From IMG/VR virus record IMGVR_UViG_3300042006_000188, positions 1 to 22,416 of that record: a DNA stretch of 22,416 bases; one strand, given 5' to 3'. A program made the position numbers and the translations under genes. The stretch is from a virus. Each line of letters opens with the position of its first letter. Within the stretch, counting starts at the first letter, position 1. Shown one piece after another: positions 681 through 20,071 of this stretch. A model generated the notes under the pieces. The model was not told the DNA's origin, did no database searches, and was given only the letters and a program-made list of their open reading frames with translations.

Positions 681-687
681 TGCGTCG

Positions 688-3600
688 ATGCTGAAGTACG
701 CGAGCGCTGTGATCATGACGGCGGATCTCGCCCCCAAGGGTGCGAGCCGTCGTGAACTGCGCCGTTTCGCCCACCGGCACCACTTCGACTACGAGGTGCG
801 GCCGGGGTTCCTGTACGTCCGCTCGCGGGCCATCTCCAGCCGGTGCAACGACAACTTCGACGAGTTCCCGGCCGAGGAGCTGGCGAAGGCGTACGCGACC
901 TTCATCGGCAAGCCGGTCTTCGTTAATCACGTCAACCATGATCATCGGCGGGCCCGGGGCGTGATCATCGACGCGGCCCTGCACAAGGACTCCAACCGCG
1001 ACGGCACGAAGGACTGGTGGGTCGAGGTCCTCCAGGAGGTGGACGCGGTCCGCTTCCCCCGGCTGGCCAAGGAGATCCTCGCGGGCAACATCGCGCGCAC
1101 CTCCATGGGCTGCGATGTTGCCTTCAGCGTCTGTTCTGCCTGCGGCAACAGGGCGACCACACCGGCCGAGTACTGCCAGCACATCCCCGGCTCCAAGGGC
1201 ATGATGCTGTATCGCAGGACGGCCTCCGGCCAGAAGGTCGGAGAGATCATCCGAGAGACCTGCTACGGCCTGAAGTTCTTCGAGAACTCCCTCCTGGTCG
1301 AGCCCCCGGCAGACCCCACGGCCCACTTCCTGGGTGTTGACACCCGGGGCCTTCAGTCGACGGCCATGCGCAAGGGCGCCCCGTTCGCGGACTACAAGGA
1401 CTTCGAGCAGTGCACCGAGGAGAACTCGGACAAAGACGACCCGTCGGACTACTGCGGCGAGATCAAGCACAAGACGGAGGACTCCAAGAAGGAGTCGGCC
1501 TACACGAACCCGTACGAGCACGACGACAAGACGGCAGGGAAGGATCCCCGCTTTGAGGGTGTGGGCCTGAAGCAGGACGACAACGGCTGGTACGTCACAA
1601 CCCACAGGGCCCGATCGGACTCCTACGAGAGCCCCGAGAAGATTCCCCAGTCCGTGGTGGACAAGATCGAGTCCACCGGCAAGCGGGTCACCCGGATCGA
1701 CCTGAAGGCCCTTGCAGCCCGCAAGAAGGCCTCTTCGCCCGACGGCTGGACCGAAGGCGAGTCCTTGGGGTGGGACGCGATCGGAGAGCGCCATCCAGAC
1801 ATCTACGGCGACCCGGAGGTCCACGAGGGCGCCGAAGGGGATGGCGATGGCATCGGCTGGGCTGCCAGTCACCTGGCACATGCCACCCCTAAGGACCCGG
1901 ATGCCGACGAGCACGGATCCTGGGACCTGACGTTCCATTCTGAGCACGTCGACCCGTACAACATCGACCACGCGCGTCATGGCGGCGCCTCCGACGGCCG
2001 GGTGCGGTACGCGGCCCAGGGCTACAAGGAGAACCCAGATCAGGTGCCTCCGCTCGTCCTGGTACACCGTCACGGCGTCTATCAAGTCGCCGACGGTCAT
2101 CACCGCGCCGAAGGGGCCAAGTTGGCCAACCAGAAGACCGTGCGCGCCTACGTCGCCTACTCGCCGTACCCCAACGAGCCCTCCAGCGACGGCGAGAGGG
2201 CTCCGTACCACGGCGCGAAGGAACACCCGGGCAAGCAGCCCCAGTGGGAGAAGGACTTCCAGGCCAAGCACGCCCGTAAGACGGCCGCCTGGAGCGGAAA
2301 CACTTACAACCCGGCGGAGTTTCCGCCTGACGCCCCGCACAACGCCGTTGCCTACCAGCCCGGCAACGGGGACTACAAGGTCTCCTGTGAGCGCGGCTGC
2401 ACGGACGCCAAGGGGTTCGCTGGCCACTGGGGTCAGCACGGTGCGGCAGGCCTTCTGATCCGCCACCAGGACCAGAACGGCACCCAGCGGTTCCTGATGC
2501 AGCAGCGGCACTTCCACATGCAGCACGGCGGCACCTGGTCCATTCCCGGTGGGGGCACCACTGCCGAAGAAGTCGGCAATCCCAAGCGGACCGCCTTCCG
2601 TGAAGCCAAGGAGGAGATGGGCCGGAACATCCCGGAACTCCGTGTCTCCCACACCCACCACGACGACCACGGCGGATGGGGCTACCACACGGTGGTTGCC
2701 GATACCCACCAGCCCTTCGTGCCCACCCACACGAGCAACGAGCACCTGGGTTCCGGCTGGTTCACGGCCAACGAGGTGGACAAGCTGAACCTGCACCCGG
2801 GGTTCAAGGAGTCCTGGGACAAGGTCAAGGACACCCTGAGCCAGCACCCCTGGCAGTCCCCCTACGGGAAGCAGGCCAAGCTGGCCTACGGCGAGCAGAA
2901 GGCCCCCATGGACGTCGACACCCTGCGCGAGGACGCCTGCCCCGTCTGCGGCGACCGCGACACCTTCGACGGCGACACCTGCGAGGTCTGCGGATACGTC
3001 GCCCCACCCAAGATCTTCCAGGACCCGGACCTGGAGAAGGCCCGTCAGATGGACCTGCGGAAGGACGTCGCAGAGTTCAACGACCCGGCCAACCCCAACC
3101 AGATCGGCCCGGACGGCCAGCCCGTTCAGGACCCGATGGATCCGAACGCCCTGGATGAGAACGGCAACCCGATCAACCCGGACGCTGCGGACCAGGAGAT
3201 GCAGCCCGGCATGCTCCCCGGAGAAGTACCGGCCGAGGTGCAGCCTGGCGGCGACCCCATGGACCCCGGAGCGCTCGGAGAGGAGGGCCAGATCCCCGAG
3301 GAGACGGGAGCACCTGTAGACCCGTCGATGCTCGGGCCGGACGGCCAGCCTCTGCCCCAGCAGCAGATGACGCTGCCGGACGGGACGCCGATCGGTCCGC
3401 AGACCCTCCCCGGGGATGCGACCACCAACATGGGCCAGCCGTTCACCCCGGGCCCGAACATGCCCGAGGGGCCCGGCGAGCCCGAAGGTCCCGAGGGTCC
3501 GGCGACCCCCGAGGATCTGGACGAGGACGGCCAGCCTGTCGACCCGGATGCGGGTCAGGGAGTTCCCGGGACGCCGGGAGACGGAGTGCCCGATCTGATG

Positions 3601-3795
3601 TGCCCCGCCTGCGGGTTCACCACAGAGGCCACTCAGCCGACCTCGGTCGACATGGACACCCAGGAGCTTCCGAACGTCGGCATGGCTCAGATGGACGGCG
3701 CCCAGGCGGGAGATGTCTGCCCGAACTGCGGATCCGCCCAGCTTCTGAGTCCGGCCGAGGTTCAGGGGCAAAGCAGCGTCCCGATGCCTGTCTGA
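688..3795 (+). CDS. Capsid maturation protease / scaffold-like protein with embedded ParB-like and Nudix domains
   Basis: A 1035-residue protein. The start at 688 is chosen because GGTGGAGG lies 7 bases upstream; the frame is open to 499 but that part reads through the terminator. Residues 1-215 resemble phage prohead proteases: GKPVFVNHVNHDH (candidate His 81/84), then ARTSMGCDV (candidate Ser139), then Cys149/152/163 with His165. Residues 450-490 look like a ParB/sulfiredoxin-type domain (LVLVHRHGVYQVADGHHRAE). Residues 583-700 are a Nudix-like domain whose box (about 620-645) ends in REAKEEMG, with a 2-3 residue insertion in the usual spacing. Cys751/754/765/768 form a zinc ribbon. Residues 790-965 are acidic, Pro/Gly-rich and scaffold-like with PDGQP repeats. 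Cys972/975 and 1011/1014 form another ribbon. It would process the head shell. The central domains are unusual for this family, whose members are generally much shorter. The protease call is inferred from motifs and position. Confidence 0.65.
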   Translation: MLKYASAVIMTADLAPKGASRRELRRFAHRHHFDYEVRPGFLYVRSRAISSRCNDNFDEFPAEELAKAYATFIGKPVFVNHVNHDHRRARGVIIDAALHKDSNRDGTKDWWVEVLQEVDAVRFPRLAKEILAGNIARTSMGCDVAFSVCSACGNRATTPAEYCQHIPGSKGMMLYRRTASGQKVGEIIRETCYGLKFFENSLLVEPPADPTAHFLGVDTRGLQSTAMRKGAPFADYKDFEQCTEENSDKDDPSDYCGEIKHKTEDSKKESAYTNPYEHDDKTAGKDPRFEGVGLKQDDNGWYVTTHRARSDSYESPEKIPQSVVDKIESTGKRVTRIDLKALAARKKASSPDGWTEGESLGWDAIGERHPDIYGDPEVHEGAEGDGDGIGWAASHLAHATPKDPDADEHGSWDLTFHSEHVDPYNIDHARHGGASDGRVRYAAQGYKENPDQVPPLVLVHRHGVYQVADGHHRAEGAKLANQKTVRAYVAYSPYPNEPSSDGERAPYHGAKEHPGKQPQWEKDFQAKHARKTAAWSGNTYNPAEFPPDAPHNAVAYQPGNGDYKVSCERGCTDAKGFAGHWGQHGAAGLLIRHQDQNGTQRFLMQQRHFHMQHGGTWSIPGGGTTAEEVGNPKRTAFREAKEEMGRNIPELRVSHTHHDDHGGWGYHTVVADTHQPFVPTHTSNEHLGSGWFTANEVDKLNLHPGFKESWDKVKDTLSQHPWQSPYGKQAKLAYGEQKAPMDVDTLREDACPVCGDRDTFDGDTCEVCGYVAPPKIFQDPDLEKARQMDLRKDVAEFNDPANPNQIGPDGQPVQDPMDPNALDENGNPINPDAADQEMQPGMLPGEVPAEVQPGGDPMDPGALGEEGQIPEETGAPVDPSMLGPDGQPLPQQQMTLPDGTPIGPQTLPGDATTNMGQPFTPGPNMPEGPGEPEGPEGPATPEDLDEDGQPVDPDAGQGVPGTPGDGVPDLMCPACGFTTEATQPTSVDMDTQELPNVGMAQMDGAQAGDVCPNCGSAQLLSPAEVQGQSSVPMPV

Positions 3796-6634: not shown

Positions 6635-6698
6635 CCGTCCTGTCCATCACCCTCACGGTGCCCCGAAGGGGTGAACAGTGCTTCGAGAGGATGCCGGT

Positions 6699-7925
6699 AT
6701 GCACGCGAGCCGTGAGTGGGTCCCGCCGAGACGGAACACCGAGGACCCGAACGTGCCGCCCCTGCCCGGCATGCCGGAGGCCAAGGTGCCCCGTATCACG
6801 CCCTTCCACAAGCTCTATCGCCAGTCCGGGAACCACGAGGTGTGGGGTCATCTGGCCCACCCGGATCTCCAGGAGCACAACCCATTCCTGAAGGACCACG
6901 ACAGGGAGTCCTTCAGCGGGCCCGGCTCTCAATGGCGCCAGGACCATGGCGGGTGGGCGGACAAGGAAGATGACTTCGAGGGTGATCCCGAGAGGATCCG
7001 GCGCCACATCCAGAACACTCTGGACAAGGCCTCTCCGGCCATCGCGATCGACACTCACCCCCTGCACCAGGTGCTGGACAGCGGCCGGGTGAAGTCCCAG
7101 TTCGAGACGCACTCTTCCGGCGGCATCCTGGCCCCGGACGAGCGCGAGAACGTCGAGCACAAGATGTTCGGCTATCCACTCGGCCTGCCCCATCATGCGC
7201 GGCCGATCTACGGCTACCTCACCAACGATCCGTCACAGCACCATCCCGGTGCCTATCCGTACGGCAGGCACACCCTGGTGCTGCATCGCCCCCGCGTCTG
7301 GCATCGGACGAGCGCCTTCATCGGCGACACCCTGGACCACCAGGGGTACGGCCACTCCGCGCACCCGGTGCAGGACTTCGGGCTTTCCGGATTCCACGAC
7401 CACGTGGACCCCCGGAAGTGGCGGCTGGACAAGTACGACTATGACCAGGACGTGCCCTACACCGAGGCCCACTTCCACGGCGGGGTCGGCCTCCGGGACA
7501 TCCACTACGCTGTACTACACAAGCCGGACGCCTCGGCATCCCGGTACGACGAGACCGGAATGCGGCGTCACGAGGCGCTGAAGCAGAAGCTGAATCACCA
7601 CAAGATCCCCTGGGTCGAGATGGAGAACGGCAAGCCGGGGGAGATGGAGCACCATCTCAGCCGTCTCATGCGCAACGCGGCGAAGGGGGCACACATGCAC
7701 AGCAACCAGTCCAAGGTCATCGGCCAGCAGGGCCCCGGCCGCTACCTGATCGACCTCGGCTACCACGACGAGAAAGGCCACCGCCAGGCCCAGATCGCTG
7801 ACACGAACACCGGTGAGCTGCATCCGCCCATGTCCAAGGACTCGATCCTGGCGCGCGGGTACTGGGACGAGCCGGACTTCGACGTGGATGTTCACGACGT
7901 CCTGCCGCACGTCACCCCGCAGTAG
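6699..7925 (+). CDS. DUF3626 / ADP-ribosyltransferase-like protein
   Basis: A 408-residue protein with GAGAGG (6685-6690) 8 bases before the ATG. The family hint comes from a chain of motifs: VLDSGRVKSQFETHSSGG (125-142), an E-x4-FG block (EHKMFGYP, 153-160), RPIYGYL (168-174), RTSAFIGDTL (203-212) and YTEAHFHGGVGLRDI (254-268). From memory, DUF3626 proteins carry the same order (QFET..S.G, RPkYG.L, gDS, EAQ.HG), which resembles the R-S-E layout of ADP-ribosyltransferases. If so, Arg168, Ser205 and Glu256 are the candidate active residues. The first 110 residues and the last 130 have no recognised domain. The protein is unusually rich in His and Asp. It sits between terminators and converges on a leftward regulator, so it is probably an accessory (moron-like) gene. 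Catalysis is inferred only. Confidence 0.5.
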   Translation: MHASREWVPPRRNTEDPNVPPLPGMPEAKVPRITPFHKLYRQSGNHEVWGHLAHPDLQEHNPFLKDHDRESFSGPGSQWRQDHGGWADKEDDFEGDPERIRRHIQNTLDKASPAIAIDTHPLHQVLDSGRVKSQFETHSSGGILAPDERENVEHKMFGYPLGLPHHARPIYGYLTNDPSQHHPGAYPYGRHTLVLHRPRVWHRTSAFIGDTLDHQGYGHSAHPVQDFGLSGFHDHVDPRKWRLDKYDYDQDVPYTEAHFHGGVGLRDIHYAVLHKPDASASRYDETGMRRHEALKQKLNHHKIPWVEMENGKPGEMEHHLSRLMRNAAKGAHMHSNQSKVIGQQGPGRYLIDLGYHDEKGHRQAQIADTNTGELHPPMSKDSILARGYWDEPDFDVDVHDVLPHVTPQ

Positions 7926-14772: not shown

Positions 14773-15480
14773 ATGCCGAGGTTCACCGCCCACCCCACAC
14801 CGCCGAACTCCCCTCCGGAGTTCCAGCCCTACTACGTCCGTCAGCCCCAGCGCTGGGCCGTCGACCAGGAGCGCCAGAGGCACTACCAGGCCCTGTACAG
14901 CATCGGCGAGTGGACGATGTTCTGCTTGATGTGGCACCTGGACGACTTCAAGCAAGGTCTGGTCGACCGGTGTTCGACCTGCTACGTGGCCAGCCGCTAC
15001 GCGAACGCCTACAAGCAGTCGGACCAGAACAAGTGCCCCGACTGCTACGGCACGACGTTCGACGGCGGCTTCCGGGCCATCATCGTGCGGCCCGCAGTCT
15101 TCTCGGACTCTGACGAGAACCAGCAGTTCCAGGCGCGCGGTGTGGTCGATGCGGATCAGCTCGACATGGAGTCCACCCCGGACTTCCGCGTCCGTACCGG
15201 CGACTACTGCTTCCGCTCCACCGGTCACCGGTTCTACCTCCGGGTGCCGGAGCGTGTGACACTCCGTACGGGCTTCGCGACGCCGTACCAGCGCTCCATG
15301 GCCGTCGGCTACAACCACGCCAGGGCGTCCCTGGAGGACCACAGCACCGTGGCGTACACGATTCCGCCGGTCGAGAAGGACCTCGTGGACATCCTGAACG
15401 TCTCGGCAACCCAGCCGCTGGACTTCAGCGCGTACGAGATCCTTCGCGCCCCCTTGATCCCCATCGACGACCTGGCCTAA
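14773..15480 (+). CDS. Zinc-ribbon structural protein, probable neck component
   Basis: A 235-residue protein; AGGAAG (14761-14766) precedes the ATG. Cys67/Cys70 (CSTC) and Cys88/Cys91 (CPDC) form a typical CxxC...CxxC zinc ribbon with 17 residues between pairs. The segment before it is helical and aromatic (HYQALYSIGEWTMFCLMWHL). After it, beta segments follow (FRAIIVRPAVFSD, DYCFRSTGHRFYLRVPERVT). I do not recognise a named family. The gene lies between the spike and the neck/tail completion genes, which suggests a head-tail joining role, with the zinc ribbon used for folding and not catalysis. It is separated from the next gene by only 11 bases. Confidence 0.5.
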   Translation: MPRFTAHPTPPNSPPEFQPYYVRQPQRWAVDQERQRHYQALYSIGEWTMFCLMWHLDDFKQGLVDRCSTCYVASRYANAYKQSDQNKCPDCYGTTFDGGFRAIIVRPAVFSDSDENQQFQARGVVDADQLDMESTPDFRVRTGDYCFRSTGHRFYLRVPERVTLRTGFATPYQRSMAVGYNHARASLEDHSTVAYTIPPVEKDLVDILNVSATQPLDFSAYEILRAPLIPIDDLA

Positions 15481-15491
15481 GGAATTTAAAA

Positions 15492-16262
15492 ATGGCATTG
15501 CTGTGGAAGAACGCCGCCGCCTTCCAGCGGGAGGGCATGGCCTGGTATGTCGAGCCGGGCGAGGAGCACTACGCCCAGACCGCGAAGCACGTCAAGAACG
15601 CCGGATTCGCGGGCTACGTCGACCATGACGCCGATACGCGGGCGGAGTACAACGAGGGTCAGAGCGGCGACGAGGGGGGATGGGATGAGGACCTCAACGA
15701 CCAGGCGCACGAGCAGGCGCTCACCTCGCGCGATCAGCGGCACTACGACGAGCACGACGACTACCCGGAGTCGTACTGGGGTCGCCAGGACCAGGCGTAT
15801 CAGCGACTGAAGGACCAGAAGGCCCGAGATGAAGAGCCGGACCACGAGGACAACGCCCTGAAGCGCTTCGTGGGCAACCACGGCACCAACACGGCCCACT
15901 GGCAGCAGCACGGGACCTATGGCGCGGTAAACCTCAAGCAGCCGGTCTACGCCACCCAGAGCCACGTCTCCCAGGCACACATCGACAAGTACCTGGCCGA
16001 TCCCGGCGCTACGAGTCACCACCGAATGAAGTACGGCGAGACGACGGGCAACAGCAACTACCTCGGTGACGGCGCCCCGATGTTCGTCACCCACGAGGGC
16101 CGCCTGCACGCCACCGAGGGACACCACCGGACGGCCGCAGCCCTCCAGCGCGGGGACAGCCACATCATGGGCTGGCACTACGACGCCGACCAGCACGGCT
16201 TCCCGGACGAAGAGGGGCGGATGCCCGACCATCCCGACTACGAAGATTCGGACGAGTGGTGA
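15492..16262 (+). CDS. ParB/sulfiredoxin-like 'GHHR' protein, paralogue A
   Basis: A 256-residue protein with AAGGAATTT before the ATG. The N-terminus ALLWKNAAAFQREGMAW is nearly shared with the next gene. Residues 30-125 are acidic and His/Asp-rich without a recognised fold. Residues 146-230 look like a ParB/Srx-like domain: NLKQPVYATQSHVSQAHIDK (first strand and helix), APMFVTHEGRLHATEGHHRT (central strands and the GHHR box at 210-213) and AAALQRG. ParB-fold proteins include DNA/CTP-binding, nuclease and phosphoryl-transfer enzymes. The dGxHR box usually contacts the nucleotide, so nucleotide binding is a reasonable guess and nothing firmer. It sits between neck genes and overlaps its paralogue by 4 bases. 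Confidence 0.55.
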   Translation: MALLWKNAAAFQREGMAWYVEPGEEHYAQTAKHVKNAGFAGYVDHDADTRAEYNEGQSGDEGGWDEDLNDQAHEQALTSRDQRHYDEHDDYPESYWGRQDQAYQRLKDQKARDEEPDHEDNALKRFVGNHGTNTAHWQQHGTYGAVNLKQPVYATQSHVSQAHIDKYLADPGATSHHRMKYGETTGNSNYLGDGAPMFVTHEGRLHATEGHHRTAAALQRGDSHIMGWHYDADQHGFPDEEGRMPDHPDYEDSDEW

Positions 16263-17053
16263 GCCTGCTATGGAGAAGGGCCGCTGCCTTCCAGCGGGAA
16301 GGAATGGCCTGGGATCTTCGTTCTGGAGAGCATCATCCAGAAGTGCACCACGTCCGAGACGTGGGTTTCGCTGGGCATGTCGACTTTCATCCACGCACCC
16401 TCCAGGAAGAGTTCGGTGGTCGGCCGGAGGGGCTGAAGGATCCCTGGGACGATCGCGATGATGACCTCCATCAGGAGACCGCGCCAGAGATGCATCCGGA
16501 GGAGCGGGCCCATATGGACGCGCATGGGGTGCCCCCGGAGTCCTACTACGACAGGCATGACGAGGCCTACGAGAAGGCGTTCAACGACAGGGAGGCAAGG
16601 GTCCGGCCGGACCATCACGATGATCGCCTGATGCGGTTCATCCGGAACTTCGGCACTGATGTGGCCCACTGGAACGAGCACGGCACCTTCGGCCCGATCA
16701 GCCTGAAGCAGCCGGTCTACGCCACTCAGAGCCACGTGTCGCAGACACACCTGGACAAGTACCACGCCGACCCGCAGGCGCAGTCCGCGAGGTTCGACGC
16801 GTTTGACCCCGACATGATCCAGCACCTTCCGGAACACCATGGCGACAAGGCCCCCATGTTCGTGACGCATCAGGGCCGTCTGCACACGATCGAGGGTCAC
16901 CACCGAGTTGGTGCAGCCCTTCAGCGAGGGGACGACAAGATCGACGGCTGGCACTTCAACGCCGACGAGAAGGGCTTTCCCCACAATCCCGAAGAGGATG
17001 ACGAGCACCGGGAGTTCTGGAAATCGAGAGGGCGCGACGGAGATCGGTGGTGA
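16259..17053 (+). CDS. ParB/sulfiredoxin-like 'GHHR' protein, paralogue B
   Basis: A 264-residue protein. The GTG at 16259 is preferred to the GTG at 16256 because MSLLWRRAAAFQREGMAW then aligns residue for residue with MALLWKNAAAFQREGMAW of paralogue A. It overlaps A's stop (GTGA), so translation is probably coupled. Conserved blocks are LKQPVYATQSHVSQTHLDKY (149-168), APMFVTHQGRLHTIEGHHRV (198-217, GHHR at 213-216), ALQRGDDKIDGWHFNADE, and the PESYYDRHDEAY region. The segments between these blocks differ strongly. The nucleotide sequence of the shared blocks is also close, which indicates tandem duplication followed by divergence. Function is unknown, and nucleotide binding is inferred from the ParB-like fold. 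Confidence 0.55.
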   Translation: MSLLWRRAAAFQREGMAWDLRSGEHHPEVHHVRDVGFAGHVDFHPRTLQEEFGGRPEGLKDPWDDRDDDLHQETAPEMHPEERAHMDAHGVPPESYYDRHDEAYEKAFNDREARVRPDHHDDRLMRFIRNFGTDVAHWNEHGTFGPISLKQPVYATQSHVSQTHLDKYHADPQAQSARFDAFDPDMIQHLPEHHGDKAPMFVTHQGRLHTIEGHHRVGAALQRGDDKIDGWHFNADEKGFPHNPEEDDEHREFWKSRGRDGDRW

Positions 17054-17059
17054 TTTGAC

Positions 17060-17770
17060 GTGTTGTTGGAGACGCAGGAGATGCGGCTCGCGGAACAACC
17101 CGACCGCATCATCATGATCGTCAAAGGACTGAATCCGGGACGGGCCCGTGCGGCTGCTCTGGCGGCCGTCCGCGAGGCCAGGCGGAAGATGCCGAAGATG
17201 TCCGGGGCCTCGGCCGCCCGGCTCCAGCCCCTGTACGGCAAGGGGTACTTCGGTATCTGGTGGGCCGACTCCTACGTCTGGTTCCAGGACCACGGCATCC
17301 GGCCGTTCACCATGCGCAGCCTCGCCGGAAAGACCATCCCGATGTGGATCGACGACCCCACTGGTGCGGAGAGGGCCAAGAACCCCAAGGCCAAGGTCCG
17401 TACCACCCAGTCCGGCAAGGTGCAGGTCCTGATCTTCCGGCGGGCCGCGAACATCGGCCAGAGGATCACGAAGTACGGCAAGGACAAGCGGACCGGTCAG
17501 CGGATCGTGGTCTCGGACAAGCCCGCGAGCTATCCCGGTGCTCCGGGCCGGATCGCCATGAGGGAGACCGGTCAGCCTTTCACCCGGGAGGGGAAGCAGG
17601 GCGGCCAGATCGCCCGGGGGAATGTCGGCGTACGGTGGCGCCACCCGGGGATCGCGCCCCGGTTGTTCCTGAACAATGCGTGCACGCTGGCCGCTCAGTG
17701 GAACGGCATCCTGCCGACCCGGGTGTACCTCTGTGACAGCAACTGGCGGCAGATCCTGGAGACTCGCTGA
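17060..17770 (+). CDS. HK97 gp10-like tail completion / neck protein
   Basis: A 236-residue protein. The GTG at 17060 is used, with GGTGGTGA upstream; an ATG at 17081 with GGAG 9 bases before it is a real alternative and would remove 7 residues. The N-terminal helix LNPGRARAAALAAVREARRK is followed by a region rich in aromatic residues (KGYFGIWWADSYVWFQDHGI) and a basic middle. The C-terminal GNVGVRWRHPGIAPRLFLNN resembles the 'hPG..p..Fl..A' ending of HK97 gp10-type neck proteins, which seal the head-tail junction. It is followed by the probable tail terminator with a one-base stop/start overlap (TGATG at 17768-17772), as in many neck modules. Confidence 0.55.
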   Translation: MLLETQEMRLAEQPDRIIMIVKGLNPGRARAAALAAVREARRKMPKMSGASAARLQPLYGKGYFGIWWADSYVWFQDHGIRPFTMRSLAGKTIPMWIDDPTGAERAKNPKAKVRTTQSGKVQVLIFRRAANIGQRITKYGKDKRTGQRIVVSDKPASYPGAPGRIAMRETGQPFTREGKQGGQIARGNVGVRWRHPGIAPRLFLNNACTLAAQWNGILPTRVYLCDSNWRQILETR

Positions 17771-18423
17771 TGTACATCGCTCCGTTGAAGACGCTCCTCG
17801 TGGAGGCCATTCAGGGGACCTTCGACAGCGTCTATCCCGTGGCCAAGTTCCGGAACGTTCACGCCAGTCTGGAGTATCCGGTCGACTCTCAGGACTATCC
17901 GTCGCTGTGGGTCGACTACGACGACACCCAGCCCCTCATGCGGGCCGGTGTGGCCCACCTGGAGGACGTGAGCCCCATCAACGGCACCACGGTGGCCCCG
18001 TTCACCCGGTGGCGCTTCCAGGGCTACGTCTCGGTCACGGCTGTTGCCCTGACCTCTCTGGAGAGGGACGAGCTGTTCGACGAGGTGGTGCGGGTCGTGG
18101 CCTTCGGCAACGAGGACTCCGTCATCGGCCGCTTCAAGGACCGGATCGCCAACAACGACCTGATCGCGGCCAACCTCCAGACGGACAAGATCGACGTGCG
18201 AGGCAGTGCTGCGGCCCCGGGCACCCCCTGGGGGACCGACGAGCTGATGTACGAACGCTCGCTGAACCTGGAGATCATCGGTGAGTTCGTGCCCGACCCG
18301 AGCACTGGAACTCTCATCCCGCTGTCCAGAATCGAGATCATCGCGGACCAGTACCTTCCGGGTCAGCCGAACAGCCCCTTTGCCGAAGACGCCATCGGGG
18401 GAACCTCGTCCGACTGGCATTGA
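17770..18423 (+). CDS. Probable tail terminator protein
   Basis: A 217-residue protein starting at the ATG that overlaps the previous stop by one base. It begins with a helix (MYIAPLKTLLVEAIQGTF), then alternates strands and helices (YPSLWVDYDD, RWRFQGYVSVTAVALTSLER, DELFDEVVRVVAFGNE), and ends in a second beta region (LNLEIIGEFVPDPSTG). This alpha/beta pattern fits tail terminator (gpU/gp15-like) proteins, which form a ring that stops tail-tube and sheath growth. The position directly before the sheath gene is the usual one in myoviruses. The family is not confirmed by sequence recognition. Confidence 0.5.
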   Translation: MYIAPLKTLLVEAIQGTFDSVYPVAKFRNVHASLEYPVDSQDYPSLWVDYDDTQPLMRAGVAHLEDVSPINGTTVAPFTRWRFQGYVSVTAVALTSLERDELFDEVVRVVAFGNEDSVIGRFKDRIANNDLIAANLQTDKIDVRGSAAAPGTPWGTDELMYERSLNLEIIGEFVPDPSTGTLIPLSRIEIIADQYLPGQPNSPFAEDAIGGTSSDWH

Positions 18424-18427
18424 CCTC

Positions 18428-18465
18428 CTGTCCTTCGGGGCCCCTCTCCTGGGAAGAGGTGGAAG
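18428..18465 (+). repeat. Leader repeat, copy 2 (partner at 643-680)
   Basis: It matches 643-680 at 31 of 38 positions. CCTCT (18443-18447) can pair with AGAGG (18455-18459). Here the repeat lies 35 bases before the sheath start and does not supply the ribosome binding site, which is GGAGGG at 18487-18492. Confidence 0.55.
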
Positions 18466-18499
18466 CTCGACCTAGCCACCGGTCCCGGAGGGTATATAA

Positions 18500-20071
18500 A
18501 TGCCGGATTTCACCAGTTACGTCCCGCCCGGGGTCTATGTCCAAGACACGTCGCTGCCGGTCGTCACGCCCACCACCGTCACGACGAACACCGTGACGAT
18601 CATCGGGCCTGCGGTCGGCTACCAGACGAACACCGAACAGGTCCTGGTCTACTGGAACTCCAACACCGCACTGGCCAAGCGCGGCATCTTCGTTTCCGCC
18701 GTCACCGGCCCTCCGGCCATCGGAGCCCCAGTCGTCAAGGACGCCAACGGCGTCACACAGATCTACGGCACCGACTACACCTTCGTGGTCGATGCATCGG
18801 GCACCGGCGGTGCGGCCAACGCCGTGACCTACATCAAGCGCCTTGGTCCCTCTGGCACTCCGTCGGGCCCCTCTCCGACGAGCGGCCTTGTGGATGGCGC
18901 TGCGGTCTTCATCACCTACAACTACGCGGACACCACGTACTTCACGCCGCAGGAGTTCACGGACCCGAGCCAGATCGCAGCCACCTATGGAGCGGCGGTC
19001 TCCAGCACCACTCCGTCGAACCCGAACGCCTCTCAGGTCGTCTGCGCGCTCACCCTGGCCGCCCAGATCGCCATGGCCAACGGTGCGAGCAACATCCTTG
19101 CCCTGCCGACCAACCCGGCCGACGGAACGATCAAGGAGCAGTTCGAGGCGGCCTACGCCAAGATCCTCACGAACTACAAGGCCCAGCTCATCGTCCCCCT
19201 GTTCGTGGATGCCACCCCCGAGGACACCGGCACCCCGGCTGACGCCCACACGGCCGATGCCGTCCTCGCGCTCATCCAGGACGCGAACAACCACTGCGTC
19301 AACGCCTCGGACGACGGCTACGGCCGGATCGCCTTCATCGGCTTCGAGACCAACTACGACGTGGCCACCCGGAACTACAACGTCGTGGCCCAGACGATCG
19401 ACTCGAAGCGCACGGTGCTGGCGTATCCGAACCAGATGAACTTCTACAACACCCGGCTGGCTCAGACCACCGTGGTGGCCGGGTACTACCTCGCGGCGGC
19501 CATGGCCGGACAGCTCGCGGGCGGAGACGTGGCCCGAGGCCTGACGAGCGTTACCGTGACGGGCTTCAACGGCATCCCTCCGGCCCTCGCACAGCTCCAG
19601 ACGAAGTCCTTCAAGGACAACCTGTCCCGGGCCGGTGTCTCGGTCGTGGAGCAGACCCGTACGGGCACGCTGTCGATCCGTCACGGGCTCACCACCGACA
19701 TGAGCAGCCTCACCACCCGTGAGGTCTCCATCGTCCGCACCGGTGATGTTCTCTTCGAGCTGGTGCAGACCGGCATGGATGCTGCTGGCCTGATCGGCGA
19801 GCCGATCGACGCCGACATGACCACCAAGGTCAAGGGCGCTCTGACCGGCATCCTGGAGCGGGCCGTCACCGACACCGTGATCCGCGCATACACCGACGTT
19901 GCGGTGAGGCAGCAGAGCCTGCCCTCCGGTGACCCCTCGGTGATCGAGGCCCAGTTCGCGTACGCCCCGCTGGTGCCGTTGAACTACATCACGGTGACCT
20001 TCGCCATCGACCTCAACTCGGGCGATATCACCGCGACCGACAACACCGACGACACCGCGACTGCGGCCTAA
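18500..20071 (+). CDS. Contractile tail sheath protein
   Basis: A 523-residue protein; GGAGGG and an AT-rich TATATAA spacer (7 bases) precede the ATG. The N-terminal PGVYVQDTS is the usual start of sheath proteins. Residues 150-330 contain the alpha/beta core (NILALPTNPADGTIKEQF, KAQLIVPLFVDATPEDTG, YGRIAFIGFE). The C-terminal domain has IRHGLTTDMSSLTTREVSIV and the final VPLNYITVTFAIDL, both typical of the conserved sheath C-terminus that wraps the tube. Sheath subunits contract to drive the tube through the cell envelope. Together with the tube gene 16 bases after it, this fixes the phage as a myovirus. It is the most secure functional assignment in the window. Confidence 0.92.
   Translation: MPDFTSYVPPGVYVQDTSLPVVTPTTVTTNTVTIIGPAVGYQTNTEQVLVYWNSNTALAKRGIFVSAVTGPPAIGAPVVKDANGVTQIYGTDYTFVVDASGTGGAANAVTYIKRLGPSGTPSGPSPTSGLVDGAAVFITYNYADTTYFTPQEFTDPSQIAATYGAAVSSTTPSNPNASQVVCALTLAAQIAMANGASNILALPTNPADGTIKEQFEAAYAKILTNYKAQLIVPLFVDATPEDTGTPADAHTADAVLALIQDANNHCVNASDDGYGRIAFIGFETNYDVATRNYNVVAQTIDSKRTVLAYPNQMNFYNTRLAQTTVVAGYYLAAAMAGQLAGGDVARGLTSVTVTGFNGIPPALAQLQTKSFKDNLSRAGVSVVEQTRTGTLSIRHGLTTDMSSLTTREVSIVRTGDVLFELVQTGMDAAGLIGEPIDADMTTKVKGALTGILERAVTDTVIRAYTDVAVRQQSLPSGDPSVIEAQFAYAPLVPLNYITVTFAIDLNSGDITATDNTDDTATAA

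Follow-up and report, generated by a model that had tools for sequence, protein, structure and literature searches.

What two adjacent genes for similar ParB-like proteins may do inside the neck gene block of a phage is the question raised by positions 15492 to 17053 of the DNA analyzed here. The whole stretch (the "window") is a virus record of 22,416 bases from a phage with a contractile tail. Compared as DNA, the gene for its major head protein matches its counterpart in Rhodococcus phage E3 at about 74% identity and a part of the counterpart in Mycobacterium phage Phabba at 78%. Streptomyces is probably the host, because the neck-module gene phrog_2819 has a 65% match in the Streptomyces phage-plasmid pRLB1-9.1 and further matches in contigs of Streptomyces sp. 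MH60 and A0642.

Two paralogous genes in the neck module

On the plus strand, which carries all features of the window described here, the neck module reads zinc-ribbon protein gene (phrog_2806; 14773..15480, PHROG E 5e-18), slot 1, phrog_2819 gene (17060..17770, E 6e-14), slot 2, phrog_2748 gene (17770..18423, E 2e-26), and tail sheath gene (18500..20071). The two genes, "A" and "B," fill slot 1, which is bordered upstream by the zinc-ribbon gene and downstream by phrog_2819; slot 2, between phrog_2819 and phrog_2748, is empty in the window, with a gap of 5 bases. The sheath was assigned with a profile that recovered the annotated sheaths of Phabba, Pupper, Skog, Myrna, and Stormageddon, Phabba's own sheath being one of the profile rows. 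The first-pass annotation had placed A and B between a zinc-ribbon gene and a "gp10-like" neck gene; the position holds, and no Pfam match gives phrog_2819 that name. In two other loci (L127:1556-3022 and L136:5251-6414), ORFs that read as intein-like seem to split the phrog_2819 gene.

A (15492..16262, 256 aa; delimited by ORF, BLASTP, model, and fold searches) and B (16259..17053, 264 aa) both encode tagged ParB/Srx-like proteins. For B, the GTG at 16259 is more likely the start than 16256, because it yields a 4-base overlap with A (16259-16262) and the N-terminal tag MSLLW; with this start, the overlap noted before stands. The proteins are identical at 116 of 243 positions (48%; BLASTP, 208 bits, E 1e-71) over almost their full length, which is more than short chance matches would give, so that by sequence they are true paralogues in tandem. 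Their alignment contains the blocks AAAFQREGMAW, LKQPVYATQSHVSQ, and GHHR, as had been seen. These blocks are also shared in the DNA, with 77% identity inside and 49% outside, but roughly to the extent predicted by the protein blocks: the same codon is used at identical residues in 68% of the cases in the blocks and 50% outside, compared to 75% between A and its orthologue in L003. This comparison of codons and DNA gave no clear sign of a recent gene conversion between A and B.

The nearest relatives, L003 and L004, possess one gene at the same place, 78% identical to A. In a tree of A/B relatives, A grouped with this single copy and not with B (support 83/96), so that B is no fresh copy of A; the other branches of this tree lacked resolution, and its row L071_C had been cut at wrong coordinates. 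Both neck slots of L005 are empty; its homologue of A (51%) is located far away from the neck, as the C-terminal module of a 1102-aa ORF. By eye, this ORF (L005:3379-6687) contains ART, GNAT, nucleotidyltransferase, and ParB-like modules; in another frame, it includes a 194-aa HNH/endonuclease VII-like ORF (L005:4980-5564), perhaps an intron-borne endonuclease, and an ORF nearby with a HELAH motif (L005:8571-9635) reads like an ArdC-type antirestriction protein. No match to A or B appeared by tblastn among 50,697 phage records at an E value up to 0.1. Pfam, NCBIfam, and PHROGs provided no name for either protein, the best result being a ParB-like PHROG on B at E 0.029.

Assignment of a fold relied on an AlphaFold model of A (pLDDT 78.6, pTM 0.73). 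A Foldseek search of the PDB listed 47 matches with a best E value of only 0.12, nearly all of them sulfiredoxin, ParB, Noc, SbnI, SerK, PadC, KorB, or their kin. VIA-align placed residues 133-242 with nearly all of its 32 rows in the ParB/Srx superfamily, at a best Z of 6.1 that calls for caution, being below 8, and a profile search of solved structures found ParB (4umk) at E 0.4 only. The G-x-x-R-type pocket motif is present as G210 H211 H212 R213, invariant in 12 of 12 aligned relatives. Despite modest single scores, the consistent match list and the GHHR motif make it likely that the C-terminal halves of A and B form a ParB/Srx-type domain, in agreement with the fold proposed from the sequence. 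This region comprises 15888..16217 in A (residues about 133-242, GHHR at 210-213) and approximately 16658..16993 in B, as judged by alignment to A and the phrog_1033 ParB-like match (E 0.029, residues 150-236). Both proteins consist of one ParB-like domain and a helical region and lack the two or more disparate domains of a polyvalent protein.

A GHHR-type domain inside the head maturation protease had been suggested as a third use of this fold. The protease ORF (685-3795) indeed contains a ParB-like segment at 1957..2142 (residues 425-486, phrog_1033 E 2.9e-5) that aligned with the A/B profile in hhalign over 39 columns across GHHR with a probability of 85.7, and the homologous ORF of pRLB1-9.1 is annotated as ParB/RepB/Spo0J. 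The count of three is beside the point, because relatives have one to five tagged genes in the slots, some without a ParB domain. Behind the ParB-like segment, the window's protease ORF continues with a NUDIX domain (Pfam E 5e-10) and that of pRLB1-9.1 (L067:19589-23065) with a DUF7178-like stretch, seen by eye; this position may be read as a second exchangeable effector slot.

A modular N-terminal tag in two fixed slots

The N termini of A, MALLWKNAAAFQREGMAW (15492..15545), and B, MSLLWRRAAAFQREGMAW (16259..16312), agree with the tag patterns. Judged from the sequences, the general tag is formed by the first 5-8 residues, M-S-L-L-W-x-x-A, often followed by [AG]-x-W. The idea of a shared N terminus acting as a packaging or targeting tag survives in that the tag occurs on differing bodies, but AAAFQREGMAW is not its general form: AAAFQREG is confined to the A/B subfamily, and the [AG]-x-W behind it is the only element with a wider distribution. 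In the models, the confident part of the fold excludes the tag, the pLDDT being below 50 for residues 1-23 of A, where a short helix was predicted at low confidence for residues 3-14, and for residues 1-19 of a "ParB-ART" cargo, the model of which was poor (pLDDT 62.7) and was kept out of the fold search. The tag codons vary (AGC, TCC, AGT, and TCG for S; CTG, CTC, TTG, CTT, and CTA for L) while the residues are maintained, which indicates conservation at the protein level and argues against a DNA or RNA element. An ORF 3' of the window's major head protein gene (6678-7925; phrog_8314, DUF3626 at E 2e-5 without reaching the cut-off) possesses no MSLLW.

Two relatives, L016 and L017, have phrog_2819 surrounded by small genes, three in L016 and four in L017, nearly all of which start with MSLLW but differ in their bodies. 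The DNA pattern ATGAGYCTSCTSTGGARRNNNGC for MSLLW[KR]xA, built from three contigs, was run on 2.9 million viral contigs and gave 10 matches in 8 contigs, 7 of them new. All 10 matches started ORFs of 126-261 aa, and every match on the gene maps of the new contigs was located at the neck slots, two of these contigs (G006 and G008) being near-identical phages. A codon-permuted control pattern matched in 3 contigs, at the start of ORFs of 12, 12, and 67 aa. When 15 whole records (1.42 Mb) were searched with a relaxed tag pattern, all 18 matches were in neck slots, Phabba, E3, and G003 had no match, and the reversed pattern gave none in any of these records. Because the loci in which the relaxed and strict expressions were counted had partly served to design them, the scan with ATGAGYCTSCTSTGGARRNNNGC is the cleaner test.

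To avoid selection on the tag, neck modules were also gathered by alignment of phrog_2819, which gave 69 viral contigs and 2 contigs of Streptomyces genomes. Together with the window and pRLB1-9.1, these were 73 loci in 59 clusters at 97% DNA identity, 54 of which had complete flanks and were used, while 5 with missing flanks were dropped. The zinc-ribbon gene is at the same place in all 54, which had been chosen for having it. Tagged ORFs, 43 in total, were found in 24 of the 54 modules. Tag-bearing starts amounted to 47 of 839 in the slots and 36 of 13,999 elsewhere (odds ratio 23, Fisher 4e-37), and the strict form, M-x(0-2)-[ST]-L-[LV]-W, started 34 ORFs in the slots, which make up 72,219 of the 686,792 bases in this count, and none outside. 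All tagged modules have a phrog_2819 protein with at least 57% identity to that of the window; below this value, 0 of 17 modules had a tag.

The slots behave as a polymorphic cassette with 0 to 5 tagged genes: one in L003 and L004, two in the window, three in L016, four in L017, and five on the L022 contig. A gene of 97 aa in L035 is among the tagged ones. Untagged genes are also housed, such as thyX in the Streptomyces phage-plasmid clade, annotated in site 1 of pRLB1-9.1 (L067:30632-31411) and present as a thyX-like gene, by reading, in site 1 of L081, L083, L088, L090, L091, L092, L098, L127, and L138. Another untagged slot gene (L034, 10328-10582) looks like that of a small membrane protein.

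The tag variant follows, as far as the sequences tell, the phage as well as the cargo. Tags on different cargo differed in 2.3 of 7 positions in near phages and 3.3 of 7 in far phages, and for such pairs the tag distance correlated with the phage distance (Spearman 0.30; 15 of 2000 permutations as high). In the phage-plasmid clade, TLVWSE[IQ] or TLVWSQI starts the ParB-ART genes, and TLVWSEI is also found on the ParB-like gene of L087.

Cargo bodies and possible functions

Without their first 22 residues, the 43 bodies fell into 6 groups, with 25 ParB-like bodies, 14 "ART" or "ParB-ART" bodies, and 4 singletons, one of which is a zinc-ribbon-like protein of 88 aa with sub-threshold matches. 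When the profiles of the ParB-like (A3) and ParB-ART (A4) proteins were compared by hhalign, they matched in columns 1-29 only, which is the tag (E 8e-6); a short N terminus is common to otherwise dissimilar small proteins. The ParB-like bodies may share descent, in which case their N termini would be alike in part through ordinary homology. In the ParB-ART cargo of L029 and L036, the C-terminal domain scored 30.1 and 33.5 against the Pfam Arr-ms cut-off of 25, with minus-strand references including the stop codon, but reached only 32 against the NCBIfam equivalog cut-off of 130. By its Pfam score, the domain resembles the Arr rifampin ADP-ribosyltransferase, although the cargo version is fused to the tag and to another N-terminal half. 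No match to the L036 protein was found by tblastn in the phage records at E values up to 0.01.

The duplication, the fold class, the modular tag, the fixed slots, and the variable bodies are results of the sequence and structure computations. With a probability of roughly 0.6, they mean that A and B are members of a rotating set of tagged cargo proteins, similar to the internal proteins of T4, which are targeted to the particle by their tag and injected. Small accessory cargo genes would occupy two slots of the neck module in Streptomyces-type contractile-tail phages and phage-plasmids, each cargo joining a short N-terminal tag to a variable body. The cargo would be made late alongside the structural proteins, carried into the particle by the tag as the targeting sequence, possibly trimmed by the phage protease, and delivered into the host together with the phage DNA. 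There, the body may act on nucleotides, DNA, or defence proteins of the host; in A and B, this would be a nucleotide-pocket domain of the ParB/Srx type, and in relatives an Arr-like ADP-ribosyltransferase. We infer virion location, late expression, trimming, injection, and a host target for the tagged proteins; titles and abstract openings of the open-licence papers listed by literature searches contained no virion proteomics, expression, or injection data and no MSLLW tag for actinophages. The site in the particle could be the neck or tail instead of the capsid, because the tagged genes adjoin neck and sheath genes, not head genes.

The location within the neck gene block could also mean that the tagged proteins have an accessory structural role in the neck. 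The tag would then be a helix for docking to phrog_2819 or to the sheath terminator, and the ParB- or ART-like folds would be inert spacers or assembly factors. All genes with the strict tag pattern flank phrog_2819, and the predicted tag helix would suit such a role. A structural part would be poorly served by 0 to 5 copies, varied bodies, and the lack of any tagged gene in 30 of the 54 modules, and the ParB-type GHHR motif and an Arr-ms domain above the Pfam cut-off point to enzymes; this explanation is unlikely. Slightly less probable still is that the tagged genes are late morons acting in the infected cell, in superinfection exclusion or takeover, and that the tag addresses the membrane or a host partner. 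The slots do accept an ordinary metabolic gene, thyX, and a gene resembling that of a small membrane protein (L034), but these two carry no tag, whereas the tagged genes are all situated in the structural block, and in the T4 counterpart, as far as PMC3012670 and PMC12373910 describe it, this layout marks packaged proteins.

That A and B arose simply when a ParB-like gene was duplicated locally, and that their common N terminus reflects homology without a separate function, would agree with their 48% identity along the length and with the 25 of 43 tagged bodies grouping as ParB-like. We regard this as improbable: the tag is also attached to ART, zinc-ribbon-like, and unassigned bodies, it is the sole segment aligned between the two main cargo classes, and A groups with the single copy of L003 and L004 and not with B. 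A ParB-like domain in proteins whose nearest named relatives include Streptomyces phage-plasmids might finally suggest partition proteins of a phage-plasmid. In a partition ParB, DNA-binding (HTH) and dimerization domains come after the N-domain. The ParB-like domain of A ends at about residue 242 of 256, which leaves no room for them, and neither domain follows it; moreover, pRLB1-9.1 has its own ParA gene elsewhere, L036 has a ParA-like gene elsewhere by sequence reading, and a partition function is very improbable. ParA-family partition-like genes were seen within the tail gene block of phage-plasmid relatives (L036:5100-6763 and L066:8568-10282).

Cultured relatives and comparison with known systems

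Tagged cargo proteins may have counterparts in cultured phages. Cluster C mycobacteriophages possess a ParB-like gene, phrog_3131 (Nappy gp126, I3 gp129; 188 phage records), the product of which is named "ParB-like nuclease domain protein" in some records. In Nappy, gp126 is found in the corresponding slot, with the zinc-ribbon gene on one side and the following neck gene on the other. These proteins resemble A and B in the slot, as placed in Nappy, and in a ParB-like GNHR motif found by sequence reading, but they have no MSLLW tag, show hardly any variation (99% or more in 187 of the 188), and gave no tblastn match from A or B.

A second N-terminal motif, TAREQ...L-x-PW-[RH], was found in mycobacterial and Gordonia relatives on Phabba gp212, Pupper gp109, Skog gp173, and Tonenili gp239, gp240, and gp245, and as a variant on Phabba gp229. 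It sits on differing proteins of one phage, three in Tonenili and two in Phabba. The Tonenili proteins gp245, gp240, and gp239 (L139:14768-15145, 17085-18683, and 18676-19977) start with (V/T)TAREQ(A/F)EML-x-PW and differ in their bodies. In Tonenili gp245, PHROG profiles of different families meet on only these first 20-40 residues, and in Phabba gp212 two of three profiles meet roughly there. As in the Streptomyces-type system, one N terminus is on differing proteins, and several contain W-R-T-A as in MSLLWRTA; different are the greater length of the motif compared to MSLLWxxA and the position of several carrier genes near the capsid gene instead of the neck. A 30-residue query from Pupper found 202 records, most single hits being listed at E 2 to 7, weak when taken alone. 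A DNA pattern for LAPWRTA was discarded as a search for the mycobacterial tag, since only 2 of 21 loci had it at a plausible N terminus with the TAREQ motif (L048 and L059, the latter being Skog by its N terminus); most others were within an unrelated enzyme with LAPWRTAAECIDW. Phabba gp212, named "ParB C-terminal domain," was rejected as a same-place homologue because it is ART-like by sequence and on the other side of the zinc-ribbon gene.

A broader reading, for and against which the odds appear even, is that an N-terminal address code directs exchangeable nucleotide-using effectors into the particles of contractile-tail phages of actinobacteria, to be delivered together with the DNA. The code would be LLW[KR]xA in the Streptomyces-type phages and TAREQ...PWRTA in the mycobacterial and Gordonia relatives, and the effectors would be ParB/Srx-like proteins, Arr-like and other ADP-ribosyltransferases, and DUF7178 proteins. 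Phage-injected effectors are hard to recognize because their bodies diverge fast; if the cargo reading is true, they could be found by the tag alone, as in the scan of the viral contigs with ATGAGYCTSCTSTGGARRNNNGC, and such a mark, as in T4, would make it easy to search a large group of actinophages that is for the most part without annotation. This raises the question for the laboratory of whether a short N terminus loads proteins into particles, which relatives among the phages of Mycobacterium smegmatis, with 188 records of the slot gene and three Tonenili proteins that share an N terminus, make testable in existing systems.

The domain of A and B has a precedent in proteins of the DdrB type. 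Iyer et al. 2017 (PMC5512222) describe ParB/Srx domains of this type in phage late genes beside virion genes, locate processed DdrB in the P1 head, and give, with the polyvalent proteins, examples of virion-linked phage effectors that contain ART domains and domains of the ParB type; marks of the DdrB-like ParB lineage are a D/N at the end of strand 2 and an extra helix with a tyrosine. The likeness consists of a ParB/Srx domain near virion genes and of the A homologue of L005 inside a multi-module ORF. In contrast to DdrB, which was compared by its description, and to the polyvalent proteins, A and B are single-domain proteins with their own tag.

The layout of the system is closest to that of the internal proteins of T4. 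As far as described in PMC3012670 and PMC12373910, these proteins have only the capsid-targeting sequence in common and include injected anti-restriction proteins, and restriction enzymes were identified as the targets of Ip1 and Ip2. Ip1, Ip2, and Ip3 and the tagged cargo share the architecture, namely a short common N terminus, dissimilar small proteins, and variable loci. They differ in fold classes, and the system of the window is one of actinobacterial hosts, situated at the neck module and known from its genes. If the tagged proteins are indeed packaged and injected, another lineage of phages would have its own counterpart of the T4 internal-protein system, and its cassette site would be the neck gene block.
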